A stretch of 64,000 nucleotides of DNA from Dehalogenimonas alkenigignens (GTDB lineage: Bacteria; Chloroflexota; Dehalococcoidia; Dehalococcoidales; Dehalococcoidaceae). This document shows, piece after piece, positions 4,702 to 32,942 of the stretch. Below the pieces are notes generated by a model that made no database searches, was not told where the DNA came from, and was given only the letters and a program-made list of their open reading frames with translations. The translations under genes were made by a program, and so were the position numbers. Where the stretch lies: the NCBI RefSeq assembly GCF_001466665.1, contig NZ_KQ758903.1, forward strand, positions 1,051,684 through 1,115,683, read 5' to 3'. Position 1 is the first letter of the stretch, and every line of letters starts with the position of its first letter.

Positions 4702-5462
4702 TGATCGTTTATGAAAGGCTTGACATGATCACGTTCAACGAGTTGGCCTGGGCAGCTTTGTTCAACTATTATAAAACTAACGGTGACAAGCGATACATGA
4801 AATTGATGGCTGATAAGTCATTTGTTTCTCGTTTGCGTACCAATCCCTCAGAAATTGAACCTGAGGAACTTGAACAGAAGCTCATTTTGGACCATGTGAA
4901 CGTGATCAACTTCGATCTTCTAATGGGTTGCCGGTTAGCCGAAAATATCCTTGAGAAAGTCACCAAGCTGCAGCCAGAGATCAAAGCCATCCAACCATAT
5001 TCCATTATCGATATCGACCTTGACGACACTCGAATTATTGAATGCATCCAAACAATCTACCGGCAGCTGTCTTCAGTGAACGGATTGTGGCTTACTGGTG
5101 TATCTAAAATTGCACACGTGTTGAACGATCAATTGTTGCCGATCATGGGTTTAGATGTTATTGACCGATTCCCACAGATCAAAGAGGAAGGCTATAAAGG
5201 TGTTACTCCATGGTTAAAGCAGATTCATCTCGATGCGGAATCGGTAATCAGAAACTTCGAGGAACAAGGCCATTCAGGCTCGCCTAATGCATTTCTATCC
5301 GAGAGTTTAAATTACACTGCGAAGGGAGTTATCAAATCCCTGGTGAAATTCCTAGACGAATACTATTGGCTGTATTACGGCGAACAGCTCCCCATCCCGC
5401 CGAAATGGGTTCCTACATTCAAAGAGCTAGGATATGTTGTTCCTTGCCTAGAAGTAAACTGA
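4701..5462 (+). CDS. Unknown protein coupled to the RadC-like gene
   Basis: A 253-residue soluble, helix-rich protein with no firmly recognised family. The central segment LWLTGVSKIAHVLNDQLLPIMGLDVIDRF resembles the SK-x-LH-x-x-x-P-x-L-x-P-x-x-D pattern seen in assorted uncharacterised bacterial proteins. The C-terminus is rich in aromatic residues (YYWLYYGEQLPIPP). The ATG at 4701 overlaps the previous stop codon. A second ATG at 4725 has GAAAGG at good spacing and may be the real start. The coupling to a helix-hairpin-helix protein in an integrase-bounded region suggests a two-gene functional unit, possibly acting on nucleic acid. Confidence 0.6.
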   Translation: MIVYERLDMITFNELAWAALFNYYKTNGDKRYMKLMADKSFVSRLRTNPSEIEPEELEQKLILDHVNVINFDLLMGCRLAENILEKVTKLQPEIKAIQPYSIIDIDLDDTRIIECIQTIYRQLSSVNGLWLTGVSKIAHVLNDQLLPIMGLDVIDRFPQIKEEGYKGVTPWLKQIHLDAESVIRNFEEQGHSGSPNAFLSESLNYTAKGVIKSLVKFLDEYYWLYYGEQLPIPPKWVPTFKELGYVVPCLEVN

Positions 5463-5645
5463 TGTCTGTTTGTTGAACAGACATATCTGATTTTTGTTAG
5501 ATCAAGCCTGAATGAAAGGCAACGATCCCGGTGTTTGCATCGAAAAAACAAAACCTACAATGGCTAGGCTAGCTCTTATAGTCCACATACGCTTGGAACG
5601 CTTATAATCCCGATGAGTACCGGTAAATGAAGGAGGTGCTCCTGT

Positions 5646-5858
5646 ATGCGCTGGGAATGGGCTCCCATGGGTTGGTTCTTCGATAGCTGGTTTGGCATTA
5701 TAGTTTTTGTTATCAGTCTAGCAGTGTATGCTTTACCCACAATAATCGCTGTCGCCCAGCATCATCACAACGCCTTAGCAATTATTTTGGTTAACTTTTT
5801 CTTGGGTTGGACTTTCCTCGGCTGGGTGGCGGCTTTGATTTGGGCGGTAAAGAAATAG
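5646..5858 (+). CDS. Superinfection immunity-like membrane protein
   Basis: A 70-residue protein matching the small superinfection-immunity family (named after phage T4 Imm). It has one hydrophobic segment (IIVFVISLAVYALPTIIA), a short polar turn with several histidines, and a second with the typical LGWTFLGWVAALIWA ending. The ribosome site AAGGAGGTG precedes the ATG. In the phage prototype the protein blocks DNA entry by a second phage; cellular members of the family are common and mostly untested. It sits alone between the unknown coupled pair and a bidirectional terminator. Confidence 0.75.
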   Translation: MRWEWAPMGWFFDSWFGIIVFVISLAVYALPTIIAVAQHHHNALAIILVNFFLGWTFLGWVAALIWAVKK

Positions 5859-6021
5859 TCCTTTGTTTTTAGGAAGGGCAGCAATTACTTTTTTTGCACC
5901 GATGAAGAACGATCAGATGCTGCGAACTCACACATTTTTGACGGATTATGCATTTAGGTGGGGGACGGTGGAGAGTCGAACTATACCCGAAGTAAAGGAT
6001 GTCTTGGAGTGTATCTACCAA

Positions 6022-6067
6022 AAAAAAATAAACGAAGGGCTGATAAAGACCCTTCGTTTATTTTTTT
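6022..6067. terminator. Bidirectional terminator between convergent genes
   Basis: A perfect 18-bp inverted repeat (6022-6039 with 6050-6067) with A-run and T-run flanks built into the stem. It can serve both the membrane protein gene ending at 5858 and the minus-strand gene ending at 6101. Confidence 0.9.
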
Positions 6068-6100
6068 GGGTAAACCTTCGACCCAGTTTGGAATTCTTAT

Positions 6101-7102
6101 TTACTCGATAAACGTTGTAGTATCGACAGGGTAAAACCTGACCTGCAGCAATTTGGTGCCGTCATTAACAAGGCCTTGTTCAGTGATTACCAGATCTGCG
6201 ATGTTAAGTATCCATTCTGAATCGTAGTACCAGGACATCGGTGAATCGCCTAGAGAAAGGGCTGTCAACCAGGCTTCGACATCCAGTTCATCCTCGACAC
6301 CGTCGTTGTTGTAGTCCCTATTAGCCGCGGTGAGGTCATCGTTATCGTAGTCACCGATTGGTACATCGAAAAGGGAGATTATCCCATCCGGCACACCTTC
6401 AGGACCATTTGTATCGAGGCGGGCGTCCACGACCCATCCGGTGTAGGTGAACAGGTCTGTGATGTTGGTGGCTTTTGATTTGCCTTTACCGACAGTAGAA
6501 TCCGGATCAAACCTAACGAATGTTTCTTCCTCGGCAACATACAGGTTTGGGCCTACAATCAAGCCTAAAGCCAGCAGTGGGTCATCAATTGGATCAGTAT
6601 AGTTGGGGAATTCCGTATTTGCAGGATCGATATCGTTGTAGGCTGCGATTACCTGATTAGGGTAAAGAATAATGCTGCTGACAGGCTCGATGCTACCGTT
6701 ATTTGGCTTGCCTAAGATTCTTCCAAAAACGAAATAGCCTTCGGCTTCATAGGGAAGTTGAACCCGGGCAGCATCGCCATCGAAGGCTTCTGCAAGTGGA
6801 TCGAGGACGTAGAGTTCGGTTTGAGATGACTTTTTGTTAGTTACGTACTCGATCGTTGAAGCTCCAAATTCGAGAATGAAAACCGAATTGCCACCCGGAG
6901 TGGGATCGCCAATATAATCCGCCGTCTTCCCGAGTATGTTGAGATTGAAATGCTCACCACTGGGGAACCCATTGCTTCGTGCTATCACATCATTGGTGCC
7001 ATTTGAACCATCTGGCTTTGCCGCCGCAATCTGTGTTACACCCGTCATAATCAAGACTAGTGTAAGAGCAAGTGACAGCCTTACTGCTTTTCTGCCTTTC
7101 AT
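6101..7102 (-). CDS. Secreted protein with Asp/Asn-rich calcium-type motifs
   Basis: The start at 7102 is fixed by GAGGAGGAAGGT directly upstream; a longer reading frame to 7183 lacks this. The 333-residue product begins with a signal peptide (KGRKAVRLSLALTLVLIMTG...AAA). The mature part is acidic and beta-rich by composition. Near the C-terminus are two Asp/Asn loops (DYDNDD and DYNNDGVEDELD) like dockerin or EF-hand calcium-binding loops, followed by a helix-like WLTAL. No enzyme motif was seen. It probably acts at the cell surface or outside, like its neighbours. Confidence 0.65.
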   Translation of the reverse strand: MKGRKAVRLSLALTLVLIMTGVTQIAAAKPDGSNGTNDVIARSNGFPSGEHFNLNILGKTADYIGDPTPGGNSVFILEFGASTIEYVTNKKSSQTELYVLDPLAEAFDGDAARVQLPYEAEGYFVFGRILGKPNNGSIEPVSSIILYPNQVIAAYNDIDPANTEFPNYTDPIDDPLLALGLIVGPNLYVAEEETFVRFDPDSTVGKGKSKATNITDLFTYTGWVVDARLDTNGPEGVPDGIISLFDVPIGDYDNDDLTAANRDYNNDGVEDELDVEAWLTALSLGDSPMSWYYDSEWILNIADLVITEQGLVNDGTKLLQVRFYPVDTTTFIE

Positions 7103-27274: not shown

Positions 27275-27302
27275 TTGACATATCAGAAAAGAAAGATATA
27301 AT
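27275..27302 (+). promoter_or_regulatory. Promoter of the peptide ABC operon
   Basis: TTGACA (27275-27280), a 16-base spacer, and TATAAT (27297-27302), 65 bases before the start of the binding-protein gene. Confidence 0.85.
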
Positions 27303-27367
27303 AGTTCTTATTCTTATTGGACAGTGAGCCACCTGTCCGAATTCTAAAAATTGTGAAGGAGGTAGTC

Positions 27368-29038
27368 ATGGATCCAACCCGTATCTCGAGGCGTGATTTC
27401 ACCAAACGGATGGCAGTCGTTGGCAGCGGCATCATGGTGTTCGGGGTAATGAGCGCCTGCGACAACGACGAACCAGCTCAGACCACAACTCCAACGGCAA
27501 CCCTCCAACCGCTACCTGCATTGAAATTCCAATTCTCGGACACTGCGGGCAACCGGACCATAGCCCAATACCTTCAAGGCCAGATGTCTCAGAATATGGG
27601 GATCAATATCACTCTGGAGCCAATGGAGTCGGCCGCTTTCCAGAAATTTGTTAACGAGGAGAACCATACCTGGGCATGGTTTGGCTGGGGAGCCGATTAT
27701 CCCGATCCTGAGAACTTCCTGGATTCCGTGTTCATGACCAAGGCCGGTAACAATCACACCCTTTATTCCAATCCTCAATTTGATACCCTTATGACCAACG
27801 CGTTGAAAGAACTGAACAACACCACTCGCCTCCAGATGATTGACCAGGCTCATCGTATGGTGGTCGAAGACATGCCGATGGTTTTCATGTTCAACCGCGA
27901 GCGCTTCAACCTGGTCAAACCAGCCCTCAGACCCACCCTCAAGCCCACCGGCCAGGATGGCCAGATAATGGGCGACCGCTTCTTCCGGCAGGTCAGCATG
28001 CCCAATAACATTCTGCGGGTCAACAGCAGCGGCGATCCCCCTACCCTCGATACCAACGCCGCCTCATGGGCAAGCAGCCTTTCCTGCCTGTATCAGATCT
28101 ATGACGGCCTGTTTACCTTCGACCAGAACCTCAACGTTCAGGCGATGGTAGCCAGTGAGATCCCGACCACGGCCAACGGCGGCATTTCCGCTGACGGTAA
28201 AACCTACACCTTCAAATTGAAGTCAAACGTTACTTGGAGCGACGGCAAACCTGTTACTGCTCAGGACTTCGAGTACAGTATCAAACGCATGCTGGCACCT
28301 GCCACCGCTGCGGAATACTCGTTCCTCTATCTCGCTATCGCTGGCGCCGAGGCATATAACGCCGGTACTGGTCAGGAGAGCGCTGTTGGTGTGAAAGCCC
28401 TCAACGCGACTACTCTGGAGATTAAGTTGGCTCAACCGCAGCCGACCTTCATTTCCAGGATGGCGTTGTGGCCGTGTTACCCGGTGCGCAAAGACATTGT
28501 TGATGCCAAGGGCGCCGACGCCTTCCTGCCGCCCAACTTGATCGGCAACGGTCCTTTCATGTTGACAGAATGGGTACCGTTGGACCACATGACCTTCAAA
28601 GTTAACCCGAACTACTGGGGCACTAAGCCTACTTTAACCGAGATTCGATTCCGCAATATTCCGGATCCCCAGGCGTCGCTGGCGGCATACCAGAATAATG
28701 AACTGGATATGTCCGGTGTTCCGGTCGGCACCGAAAAAGCCACCATGGCCGACGCTACTCTGGGAGCTCAGGTCTTCCGCAACGCTGATCTGGTGACCTT
28801 CGGCTTCCAGTTCAACGTCAAGAAAGCCCCGTTTGACAACAAGAAGGTACGCCAGGCTATCTCCTGCGCCATTGACCGCGACACCTTTATCAACAACGTC
28901 AGAGGCGGGGTCGGTCGCGCTACCACTTCGTGGATACCTCCGGGAATGCCGGGCTTCGACGCCAATATCGGCGCCGACTACAAGTTCAACGTTGCCAAGG
29001 CTAAGCAGTTGCTGGCCGAGGGCGGTTATAAAGTCTAG
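27368..29038 (+). CDS. Peptide ABC transporter binding lipoprotein, apparently circularly permuted
   Basis: A family 5 (DppA/OppA) solute-binding protein, 556 residues. The ATG at 27368 follows AAGGAGGTAG. A Tat signal (SRRDFTKR) with lipobox ending at Cys31 is followed by a Thr/Pro linker. Residues about 48-215 then read like the usual C-terminal third of this family (FGWGADYPDPENFLDSVF, VVEDMPMVFMFNRE). Residues about 218-556 read like the usual N-terminal two thirds (ILRVNSSGDPPTLDTN, YTFKLKSNVTWSDGKPVTAQDF) and end at AKQLLAEGGYKV, exactly where the C-terminal third normally begins. The total length is that of a complete protein in permuted order. It heads the ABC operon; substrates are probably peptides. 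Confidence 0.85.
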   Translation: MDPTRISRRDFTKRMAVVGSGIMVFGVMSACDNDEPAQTTTPTATLQPLPALKFQFSDTAGNRTIAQYLQGQMSQNMGINITLEPMESAAFQKFVNEENHTWAWFGWGADYPDPENFLDSVFMTKAGNNHTLYSNPQFDTLMTNALKELNNTTRLQMIDQAHRMVVEDMPMVFMFNRERFNLVKPALRPTLKPTGQDGQIMGDRFFRQVSMPNNILRVNSSGDPPTLDTNAASWASSLSCLYQIYDGLFTFDQNLNVQAMVASEIPTTANGGISADGKTYTFKLKSNVTWSDGKPVTAQDFEYSIKRMLAPATAAEYSFLYLAIAGAEAYNAGTGQESAVGVKALNATTLEIKLAQPQPTFISRMALWPCYPVRKDIVDAKGADAFLPPNLIGNGPFMLTEWVPLDHMTFKVNPNYWGTKPTLTEIRFRNIPDPQASLAAYQNNELDMSGVPVGTEKATMADATLGAQVFRNADLVTFGFQFNVKKAPFDNKKVRQAISCAIDRDTFINNVRGGVGRATTSWIPPGMPGFDANIGADYKFNVAKAKQLLAEGGYKV

Positions 29039-29077: not shown

Positions 29078-29114
29078 GAGCAAGGGATTGGGGACTTCCA
29101 ATCCCTTGCTCTTT
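29078..29114 (+). terminator. Intra-operon terminator or attenuator after the binding-protein gene
   Basis: A perfect 14-bp stem (29078-29091 with 29098-29111) with a six-base loop and a short T run. It separates the binding-protein gene from the permeases and probably keeps the binding protein in excess. Confidence 0.8.
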
Positions 29115-29128
29115 ATGAATTGAGGTAA

Positions 29129-30046
29129 ATGGGAAAATATATCCTCCGCCGGCTGTTGTGGATGATGCTCACCCTCTTCGTGGTGGCTTTCATAACTTTT
29201 GTCCTGATGCACCTGGTGCCCGGCGGCCCCTGGGACCGCGAGAAAGAACTGCCTGCGCAGGTTATCGAAAACCTGAACCAAAAATACGGTCTTGATAAAC
29301 CGCTTTTCGTTCAATTCGGCAGTTATATTTGGAATGCCTTGAACGGCGATCTGGGAATCTCATATATTTACCAGGATCGGGGTGTGACAGAAATTATCCT
29401 TGGCGGATTGCCGGTAACCGCCACTCTTGGCCTGGTGGCATTTGCGCTGGCGATTGTGCTTGGCGTATCGCTGGGAGTTGCCGCGGCGTTAAAACAGAAT
29501 TCGGTTATAGACTATTTTTCAGTAGCTTATGCCACAGTTTTTGCCAGCGTGCCCGCTTTTGTGCTAGGTATTTTCTTAATGTACACCCTGGCGGTCCAGT
29601 TCCACTGGTTCCCAACGGGTGGGTGGGGTACTTTACAACATATAGTTATGCCTGCGATCGCCCTGGCGGCACTACCTGCCGCTTATACCGCCCGCATCAC
29701 CCGGGCTTCTATGCTTGAAGTTATCAGGCAAGATTACGTTCGCACAGCAAGAGCTAAAGGTTTATCTGAGCGAGTTGTATTATGGCGGCACATCAGCCGC
29801 AACGCTCTTATCCCGGTGGTCACTGTAGCTGGACCCGAGTTGGCGGCCCTCGTTTCAGGATCATTCATCATTGAGACTCTGTTCTCGGTACCAGGCATCG
29901 GCCGGCTGTTTGTTCAGGGTGTTTTCCAGCGAGACTACGGACTTATCATGGGCGCCATCTTGTTTTATGCTTTCATTATCGCTATCGTCAACCTGGTAGT
30001 TGATATTGTTTATGCCATGATCGACCCGAGGATACGCTATGACTGA
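29129..30046 (+). CDS. Peptide ABC transporter permease, DppB type
   Basis: A 305-residue inner-membrane permease. The N-terminus YILRRLLWMMLTLFVVAFITF is typical of DppB/OppB. Six hydrophobic helices are visible, and the EAA-loop region reads DYVRTARAKGLSERVVLWRH before the C-terminal helices. GAGGT precedes the ATG. The stop overlaps the start of the second permease gene by eight bases. It should pair with the DppC-type subunit, whose gene here carries a stop codon. Confidence 0.93.
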   Translation: MGKYILRRLLWMMLTLFVVAFITFVLMHLVPGGPWDREKELPAQVIENLNQKYGLDKPLFVQFGSYIWNALNGDLGISYIYQDRGVTEIILGGLPVTATLGLVAFALAIVLGVSLGVAAALKQNSVIDYFSVAYATVFASVPAFVLGIFLMYTLAVQFHWFPTGGWGTLQHIVMPAIALAALPAAYTARITRASMLEVIRQDYVRTARAKGLSERVVLWRHISRNALIPVVTVAGPELAALVSGSFIIETLFSVPGIGRLFVQGVFQRDYGLIMGAILFYAFIIAIVNLVVDIVYAMIDPRIRYD

Positions 30047-30968
30047 AGCGGCTGCCGAATTCATACCTGCCTCAACCAAAACGAACGTGTCGGCTCGTCC
30101 GCACCACACCTTGTGGGGTGACGCCTGGATACGGCTTCGGCGCAATAAGCTCGCCGTTGTCGGCGGCATCATTATTATCATCATTGCTCTGGCGGCGGTG
30201 CTCGCCCCCTGGATTACCGAATATGATTTTGCCTTCCAGGATTATAGCGCAATACTCTAGCCTCCAAGCGCTGAGCACTGGTTCGGCACTGACGAACTGG
30301 GACGCGATGTCTTCGCCAGGATGATCTACGGCGCGAGAACTTCCCTGGCCGTGGGTTTGTTTACTCAGTTCATTGTTATTTTTGTTGGCTTGCCAATCGG
30401 CGCTTTCGCCGGTTTTATCGGCGGGAGGGTGGACAACCTTCTGATGCGGTTCGTCGATGTGATGTACGCCTTCCCTGACATACTCCTCATCATCCTGCTC
30501 TCCGCCGTCATGCGGGAAACAGACTTCGCTCGTTTTGGCGGCGGCATATTCGTTATCTTCCTCGCCATCGGATTGGTAAACTGGGTGGGGATTTCTCGAC
30601 TGATTCGCGGACAGATACTCTCGTTGAAACAGCGTGATTTCGTCACCGCCGCCCGCGCTATGGGAGGAGGTAGCCGCTACATCACCTTCCGGCACTTACT
30701 GCCCAATGCCTTGGGGCCGATAATTGTCGCTGTGACTTTCGGTGTGCCAAGAGCCATTTTCGCCGAGGCAGCGTTGTCGTATATCGGAATCGGTATTCGA
30801 CCACCAACCCCGAGCTGGGGCGCTATGATACGTGACGGATTCAACGTGATGAACGCTTATCCTCACTTAGTCATTATTCCTGCCATCGCTATTGCCGTAC
30901 TTATGCTAGCTTTCACCTTCCTCGGTGATGGTCTACGCGACGCGCTGGACCCGAGGCTGAGACGTTAA
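30039..30968 (+). pseudogene. Peptide ABC permease, DppC type, interrupted by in-frame TAG
   Basis: Bases 30039-30968 are one continuous reading frame for a DppC/OppC permease except for TAG at 30258-30260 (codon 74). Before it are the N-terminal cytoplasmic tail and first membrane helix, ending at YSAIL. After it the frame continues with PPSAEHWFGTDELGRDVFAR, the highly conserved DppC signature, then the remaining helices and the EAA loop (AARAMGGGSRYITFRHLLPNA). The lost codon was probably CAG (Gln). A start at ATG 30321 would skip the GTDELGRDV motif and has no clear ribosome site. Either a recent nonsense mutation, read-through, or a sequencing error. Confidence 0.85.
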
Positions 30969-30969
30969 A

Positions 30970-31971
30970 ATGTCCCTATTGAACGTTCAGCACCTGACCA
31001 CGGAGTTTCACACTCAGGACGGCATTGTACATGCCGTAAATGATGTGTCTTTTTCGGTCAACCGGGGCGAACTCGTGGCGCTCGTTGGTGAAAGCGGCTG
31101 TGGCAAAACCGTTAGTTCGCTGTCCATCATGCGCCTGATTCCAGAACCGCCGGGTAAAATTACCAGCGGCAGCATTCTTTTTGAAGGCAAAGATCTTCTA
31201 AAGCTGACCAAGGATGAAATGCGCCGGGTGCGCGGCTCCAAGATTTCAATGATTTTCCAGGAGCCGATGACTTCATTGAACCCCGTTTTAACCATAGGAC
31301 GGCAGCTCACCGAGGCGTTGATACTGCACAAAGGCATGGATAAAAAAGCCGCCGAAGCTGAAGCGGTCGACCTGCTGAACAAAGTAGGCATTCCGCAGGC
31401 GGAGAAGCGAATCAAGAGTTACCCGCACCATTTTTCCGGCGGTATGCGCCAGCGGGTAATGATAGCCATGGCTATTTCATGCCAGCCGAAACTGGTGATT
31501 GCCGACGAGCCAACCACCGCGGTGGACGTTACTATCCAGGCGCAGCTTCTTGAATTACTGAAAAGTATTATCCGCGATCTCAACAGTTCGCTTATCCTGA
31601 TCACTCACAACCTTGGGGTAGTCGCCCGCTATGCCCATCGTGTATATGTAATGTATGCCGGACGGGTTGTAGAACATGGCACCGCTGCCGAAATCTTTCA
31701 CAATCCTCTCCATCCTTACACCGCAGGTTTGTTGGGTTCAGTACCCAGGTTGGATGAACCCCGGAAACTCCGCCTGCGTTCCATCGAAGGGCAGCCGCCC
31801 GACCTAATTAGTCCGCCGAAAGGTTGTGCCTTTGCCGCCCGATGCGCTTACCGGCGCGAAGGCCGCTGTGAAACCCTTGAGTTCGAGATGGTGGAAGCAA
31901 TCCCAGGGCATTTCACCAGTTGTCTGGTAGCTTTTGAGGGAGAAACGCCTTGGCGCAAGACAATGTCCTAG
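30970..31971 (+). CDS. Peptide ABC transporter ATP-binding protein, DppD type
   Basis: A 333-residue ATPase. Walker [10 protein letters not shown]-loop [11 protein letters not shown], signature FSGGMRQR, Walker [13 protein letters not shown] and the His switch ITHNLG are all intact. The C-terminal oligopeptide-transporter extension has cysteines in [13 protein letters not shown]...GRCE and a later SCLV, as in family members that bind an iron-sulfur cluster. It starts one base after the DppC frame ends and overlaps the next gene by 22 bases. Confidence 0.93.
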
Positions 31972-32942
31972 TCGAAGTAACCGGACTGACTAAGTATTTT
32001 CCGATCGCCTCAGGTGGGCTGTTCCGCAAAAAGGTGACCGAGCTGAAGGCTGTTGATGGGGTGACCTTCGCTGTACACCAGGGAGAGACGCTGGGACTTG
32101 TCGGCGAATCCGGCTCCGGCAAGACTACGGTCGGCAAATGTGTCCTGCAACTTCATCGGCCAACCTCCGGCGAGGTCATCTTCAAAGGACATGATTTGGC
32201 CTCTTTATCAGAAAAGCAGCTGCGGGCGTATCGTCCCAAGCTTCAGGTCATTTTTCAGGACCCTTACGAATCGTTGAACCCCCGTTTCACCGCCTACGAT
32301 ATCATCTCCGAACCGATGAAACTTCACGGGGCTACCCGTACCGAATGCCGGGAGAGGGTGGCGGAACTGTTGAACATCGTCGGTCTGGCGCCTTATATGG
32401 CCGAACGCTATCCTCACGAGTTCTCCGGCGGCCAGCGGCAAAGGTTAGGAGTGGCTAGGGCTCTGGCGCTGCAACCGGAATTTATCGTATGTGACGAACC
32501 TTTGTCAGCTCTCGATGTTTCCATTCAGGCTCAGGTACTTAATTTGCTGGATGACTTGCAGCGGCAGTTCGGCGTGGCCTACCTTTTCATTTCACATGAC
32601 CTGTCGGTGGTGCGCCACATCTCCCATCGGGTGGCGGTGATGTACCTGGGTAAAATTATGGAGATTGCCCCGCGCGATACCTTATATGAAAAACCTCTAC
32701 ACCCTTATACTCAAGCGCTTTTATCAGCAGTGCCGGTCCCAGACCCCAGGGTGGAAGCTAAACGGCAAGTCATCCTGCTGCCTGGAGAGCCGCCGTCCCC
32801 GTTGAATCCTCCATCCGGCTGCGTTTTTCATCCCCGATGTCCCAAAGCCTTCGAGGCTTGTTCATCGGTCGTGCCGCTTTTGAACGATGATAGAGATGCG
32901 CATTTTGTAGCCTGCCTTTTGTATAAGTCCTCCTGGCCGTAG
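31950..32942 (+). CDS. Peptide ABC transporter ATP-binding protein, DppF type
   Basis: A 330-residue second ATPase of the transporter. Walker [11 protein letters not shown]-loop [11 protein letters not shown], signature FSGGQRQR, Walker [13 protein letters not shown] and His switch ISHDLS are present. The C-terminal extension has [18 protein letters not shown]. The probable TTG start at 31950 lies behind GGGAG inside the preceding gene. Last gene of the operon. Confidence 0.93.

Follow-up and report, generated by a model that had tools for sequence, protein, structure and literature searches.

A circularly permuted family 5 peptide-binding lipoprotein in Dehalogenimonas alkenigignens

The gene, its operon and the order of its parts

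The window analysed here—the whole stretch of 64,000 nucleotides from Dehalogenimonas alkenigignens—contains an importer operon in which the gene for a substrate-binding protein (SBP) is followed by two permease and two ATPase genes (Table 1). Upstream of the SBP gene lie a promoter sequence that matches the consensus and a well-formed ribosome-binding site. In its gene content, with two permeases and two ATPases, the operon fits a DppABCDF/Opp system, with orthologues of DppB, DppC, DppD and DppF at 29129–32942 and in the six relatives compared. The SBP is encoded by a single forward-strand open reading frame (ORF), which runs from an ATG at 27368 to a stop codon at 29036–29038. Pfam assigned the 556-residue product to SBP_bac_5 and to no other family (score 296.8 bits; cut-off 32.4), which places it within that family.

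Table 1. Features of the SBP locus and its operon, in window coordinates
Feature	Position	Strand	Basis
Sigma-70-type promoter TTGACA-16-TATAAT, 12/12 consensus bases	27275..27302	+	Consensus scan; a match, not proof of function
Ribosome-binding site AAGGAGG	27356..27362	+	Seen directly in sequence
Permuted family 5 substrate-binding lipoprotein, 556 aa	27368..29038	+	ORF, Pfam, phmmer, HMM
Twin-arginine (SRRDF) lipoprotein signal peptide to Cys31, MDPTRISRRDFTKRMAVVGSGIMVFGVMSAC	27368..27460	+	Sequence inspection, no predictor
Linker, residues 32–48, DNDEPAQTTTPTATLQP; replaces old N-terminal linker	27461..27511	+	Sequence
C-terminal third, residues 49–212, HMM 355–517, with GWGADYPDPENF	27512..28003	+	phmmer, HMM
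N-terminal two thirds, residues 213–556, HMM 2–351, ending AKQLLAEGGYKV	28004..29035	+	phmmer, HMM
Intergenic hairpin GAGCAAGGGATTGGGGACTTCCAATCCCTTGCTC between SBP and permease	29078..29111	+	Position shared by orthologues of either order
DppB-type permease, orthologous across operons of either SBP order	29129..30046	+	
DppC-type permease, in-frame TAG at 30258–30260	30039..30968	+	
DppD-type ATPase	30970..31971	+	
DppF-type ATPase	31950..32942	+	

The two Pfam matches are inverted along the chain: profile positions 291–366 come first (45.1 bits) and 11–284 second (261.1 bits). The same inversion was found with phmmer against Bacillus subtilis OppA (8are), where query residues 47–174 matched 366–493 (2e-13) and residues 213–552 matched 19–356 (2e-46), and with a 520-position profile HMM trained on 23 conventional Chloroflexota relatives, on which the protein matched positions 355–517 (206 bits) and then 2–351 (486 bits). 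A conventional orthologue from the same genus (G010) gave one unbroken match to this HMM, from position 3 to 519. Each part of the family is present once, in an order that departs from the usual N-to-C succession of SBP_bac_5; because the C-terminal third precedes the N-terminal part, we filed the protein as a circularly permuted SBP_bac_5 variant. Chance is ruled out as the source of the swapped profile matches.

The chain consists of signal and linker (residues 1–48), the C-terminal third (49–212) and the N-terminal part (from 213 to about 554–556). Compared with conventional orthologues, it lacks only the short loop at the cut site (PNGVG-like) and the old signal and linker. The chain has been opened in a surface loop that links the helix AKQLLAxxGY to the strand LPxLKFQ, while the old C-terminus (ending in NVSM or NVSI in relatives and QVSM here) joins the old first strand (LRVN) without a spacer.

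The protein is a circular permutation of a family 5 peptide-binding lipoprotein, arranged as signal, C-terminal third and N-terminal two thirds. We regard this as a clean permutation rather than a fusion or truncation because its parts occur in single copy, its length is that of one protein, conventional orthologues occupy the same operon position and its halves are about equally close to those orthologues. The initial annotation, made from sequence alone, had proposed a permuted order behind a Tat lipoprotein signal and a clean rearrangement of one-protein length: the order held by Pfam, phmmer and HMM (with the signal judged by sequence inspection), and the reading as a clean permutation is supported.

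Distribution and history in the Dehalococcoidia

Our family sample comprised 11 genomes, four with the permuted order, three with the conventional order and four without a close orthologue. The permuted order occurs in four species of the genus (G000, which is the window genome, G009, G005 and G004), and the ORFs of G004 and G005 are intact. The conventional order is found in G010, of the same genus, and in G002 and G003, of a sister genus that we take to be Dehalococcoides. All seven carriers share the SBP-DppB-DppC-DppD-DppF operon as orthologous genes, and the upstream neighbours are also the same in those that have them; the conventional orthologues occupied the same operon position where this was checked (G010, G002 and G003). 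Orthologues from elsewhere in the order (G011, G049, G054, G024 and G088) are conventional, and these Dehalococcoidales versions of the gene in its usual order, including those of G010, G002 and G003, are 51–65% identical to the window protein in each half.

A wider look at the Dehalococcoidia, covering 393 genomes of the class, found matches running through the junction only in the same four species, all of a single genus; every other match ended at the junction. A scan of contigs with patterns from the N-terminal segment produced no match. A second contig pattern scan returned 80 loci, where the gene nearest to the query was conventional wherever both halves were detected; two of the 80 carry a permuted second SBP gene.

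A hairpin-like inverted repeat after the SBP stop codon was also seen, with varying sequence, in the orthologous operons at loci L036–L041 and L123–L127. It is possible that the hairpin between the SBP and DppB genes holds permease expression below the level of the SBP.

Separate trees of the N-terminal part and the C-terminal third each recovered the four permuted proteins as a single clade (100/100 and 100/99), nested among conventional Dehalococcoidia orthologues. In an rpoB tree the four permuted species likewise formed one clade (81/83), sister to a clade that includes conventional G010. Identities to the conventional Dehalococcoidales orthologues are alike in both halves (60/62 to G002, 64/62 to G054), so both halves most likely come from one gene. 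The half-trees put the permuted clade at slightly different places, with no alternative rejected (AU p 0.13–0.33). Since conventional orthologues fill the same operon position in the sister clade, the sister genus and the order, we infer a single in-place origin; one event at the base of the permuted clade is the simplest reading. On this view the gene was rearranged in place, and only once, in the common ancestor of the permuted species. The simplest inferred routes would be a tandem duplication whose outer parts were then lost, or an exchange of position between two adjacent segments, and no scar remains to distinguish the two.

The Tat signal of the window protein sets it apart from its nearest conventional OppA/DppA relatives, most of which have a Sec-type lipoprotein signal. 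However, conventional G049 and G011 also carry twin-arginine signals, so the permutation need not have brought the Tat signal with it. A search for its origin in a named gene of the genome found generic Tat leaders as the sole matches (best E 0.003); leaders similar to that of the SBP are present elsewhere in the genome. At L126 (G011) and L127 (G049), conventional orthologues from another family that bear Tat lipoprotein signals, we observed a longer, altered loop (ATALTELKLADASK) exactly at the position where the permuted protein is cut.

Permuted order elsewhere in family 5

OppA and DppA belong to SBP_bac_5 (PF00496), cluster C, and the window protein has in common with them the full-length sequence family, the GWxADYxDP motif, an aspartate aligned with OppA Asp419, its lipoprotein nature and its place at the head of a DppBCDF operon. 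It differs from them in having the C-terminal third first, with new termini in the loop at about 355–365 of OppA.

In the open-access literature searched, the only natural permutation found among binding proteins was that of TpMglB-2 (Tp0684) from Treponema pallidum, a glucose-binding protein proposed to represent a 'Type Ic / Cluster Bc' (PMC4990184). Like the window protein, TpMglB-2 is a tethered lipoprotein that serves an ABC importer as its binding protein and has undergone circular permutation in nature, and it still binds its ligand (PMC4990184). However, it has a type I, cluster B fold, in which the first strands of the N-lobe have moved to the C-terminus, and shows poor sequence similarity (PMC4990184), whereas the window protein belongs to cluster C, is cut elsewhere and has halves that are still 51–65% identical to conventional orthologues. 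Membership of Type Ic / Cluster Bc was considered and rejected, the window protein being of family 5 (cluster C) by sequence and by model. A search of the open-access literature for permutation together with OppA, peptide-binding protein or SBP_bac_5 returned nothing relevant. A permuted importer binding protein was already known in TpMglB-2; what appears new, on the literature searched, is permutation in family 5 and its recurrence there.

Junction-spanning searches recovered further permuted groups, which we label P2 to P5, the group in the window's genus being P1. P2 has the same order as the window protein, with a cut at about HMM position 355, and occurs in haloarchaea (Haladaptatus, Natrinema, Halostagnicola, Halalkalicoccus and more; for example, WP_266081825.1) and in alphaproteobacteria (Roseomonas, Ketogulonicigenium, Neorhizobium, Nitratireductor and Maritalea; for example, WP_237182973.1 and WP_113156578.1). 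Its genes adjoin ABC importer permease and ATPase genes, where annotated, and its proteins bear no annotation more specific than ABC transporter substrate-binding protein. Against solved AppA, residues 64–182 of the Ketogulonicigenium protein correspond to 384–497 and residues 214–545 to 22–349. P2 differs from the window protein in showing only about 25% identity to it, in its separate origin and in an extra tail of about 15 residues at the end.

P3 comprises three genomes of one Chloroflexota family, which also has conventional relatives, and is cut at about 402. P4, cut at about 121, rests on a single Subdoligranulum record, while P5 consists of two Anaerolineales metagenome-assembled genomes, cut at about 121, with positions 138–507 preceding 2–92. 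All of these permuted cuts sit in loops or at loop edges of the conventional model.

On a tree of 112 proteins, aligned in profile register, the 'permuted' label required five changes. One origin for P4 and P5 was not rejected (AU p 0.07), so we claim at least four independent origins of the permuted order in family 5, not five. Shared ancestry of P1 and P3 was also considered, and a single clade for the two was rejected (AU p about 1e-4). The initial annotation knew of no described permutation in this family, which held for the open-access literature searched; the window protein is nonetheless not unique in the family, four other permuted groups having been found.

These other permuted genes lie at L148 (3954–5756), L152 (minus-strand ORF, 4913–6628), L069 (9614–11503), L085 (4460–6211), L149–L151 and L153–L158. 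The permuted SBPs at L148–L158, L069 and L085 are labelled simply as ABC transporter substrate-binding protein or lack any annotation. At L069 and L085, both Anaerolineales contigs, a second SBP gene, of conventional order, lies a few kilobases upstream of the permuted one.

On a bolder reading, which we consider likely, circular permutation is a recurrent and so far undescribed way for family 5 proteins to evolve. It would have happened independently at least four times, probably five, with the chain opened at one of three loops (about 121, 354 and 402 of 520). One event would be old, spanning haloarchaea and alphaproteobacteria, and one young—that in the window—with sister species keeping conventional orthologues in that operon. 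Opening of the fold at several loops would be tolerated since its old N- and C-termini are close neighbours.

Function, alternative explanations and significance

The permuted SBP is under strong purifying selection, with dN/dS values of 0.02 (G000/G009), 0.03 (G004/G005) and 0.12 (G000/G005), although synonymous sites were saturated in the latter two comparisons. The GWxADYxDP motif is kept, and Asp110 aligns with OppA Asp419 in a phmmer alignment to 1b05, as expected of a peptide importer; Asp419 of OppA binds the peptide amino group. We conclude that the gene product is very probably the substrate-binding lipoprotein, with a circularly permuted chain, of a peptide importer of the DppABCDF/Opp type; its folding, binding and delivery are inferred.

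AlphaFold2 modelled the permuted protein confidently, with a pLDDT of 82.1 and a pTM of 0.78 (the conventional control reached a pLDDT of 95), and in the moved third strands and helices followed one another as they do in the control. Against solved OppA/DppA structures, only residues 177–526 of the permuted model were aligned (Z about 20–23), compared with residues 1–518 of the control (Z 43); no rotated superposition was made. A partial alignment of this kind is predicted for a changed chain order when the aligner is sequential. No full-length alignment of the permuted model appeared among the listed PDB matches, which does not disprove that one exists, and for the moved third the structure-alignment rows were unpaired half-sequences. 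The proposal that this third occupies the position of the C-terminal lobe was tested only indirectly, by the model, and its place in space remains an inference.

The protein would fold to the normal three-domain OppA/DppA shape, which is inferred in the absence of direct evidence for the position of the C-terminal third, and may bind peptides in the usual cleft and deliver them to DppBCDF, for which there are no ligand or transport data. The old N- and C-termini both lie in domain I of OppA and are joined in the permuted protein. The export and lipidation signal, here of the twin-arginine type, precedes the C-terminal third, so the lipid anchor has probably moved to the other lobe: the tether to the membrane would start from the lobe bearing the new N-terminus (the loop at about 355–365 of OppA) and not from that bearing the old one.

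Two interrupted reading frames were seen in the group. In the window genome, dppC read from the ATG at 30039 stops at a TAG (30258–30260) that is CAG in G009, G005 and G004; the shorter ORF listed from 30321 is merely the downstream part of dppC. In G009 (L036), the nearest relative, a single-base deletion at about codons 79–81 of the SBP gene (ATCAATATC to ATCATATC) causes a frameshift, while the remainder of that gene is under strong purifying selection. Neither change occurs in G004 or G005. Both may be sequencing errors or recent lesions, and the importer is possibly damaged in G000 and G009. Differences between G000 and G009 cluster at window positions 27717–27916, in the C-terminal third (34 of 200 bases, against 3–16 per 200 elsewhere in the gene), perhaps marking a recombined patch.

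Inheritance of the permuted order from the old and widespread P2 subfamily, instead of its creation anew in the genus, would account for the same order and the nearly identical cut. It is practically excluded: identity to haloarchaeal P2 is about 25%, against 51–65% to the conventional Dehalococcoidales orthologues of the same operon, and a single clade of P1 and P2 was rejected (delta lnL 85, AU p 1e-4). A chimera, joining the C-terminal third of one SBP to a truncated SBP from another source, draws some support from the C-half tree, where the permuted clade groups with Tat-signal family f2 (87/75), as it does not in the N-half tree. However, the placement seen in the C-half tree is compatible with the N-half data (AU p 0.19, not rejected), both halves fall in the same orthologous group with similar identities, and each part is present exactly once around a cut in one loop, with neither overlap nor gap; we consider a chimera highly improbable. 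The window holds the sequence of just one strain, which might suggest an artefact of assembly or sequencing, but the same order in four separately assembled species, the distant ones 64–68% identical, together with purifying selection, leaves almost no room for this.

A rearranged gene fallen out of use, decaying as its operon is lost, could explain the TAG in dppC of the window genome, the frameshift in the G009 SBP gene and the lack of a close orthologue in three sister-clade species. Against this stand the dN/dS values of 0.02 (G000/G009) and 0.03 (G004/G005), the presence of all operon genes in G004 and G005 and the retention of the order through about 32–36% protein divergence, and we judge a remnant very unlikely. 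The permuted protein might instead have been kept for another role, as a receptor or for a non-peptide ligand, with anchoring by the other lobe chosen for that purpose. A Tat signal and an anchor on the other lobe would suit a changed use, and family 5 proteins bind many ligands; yet the gene is still the first of a DppBCDF-type operon and its product keeps the equivalent of OppA Asp419, which makes this explanation unlikely, if less so than a remnant. The reading that we prefer remains the SBP of a peptide importer, permuted in place.

Natural circular permutations are usually old, with their origin lost. Here, both orders occur in the same operon of sister clades, so that the event itself, and what it does to folding, anchoring and docking, is open to direct test with orthologues that are still 51–65% identical. 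With at least four permutations at different loops, profile searches may long have returned two hits for such proteins without their order being noticed, and permuted SBPs offer natural templates for permuted peptide biosensors.
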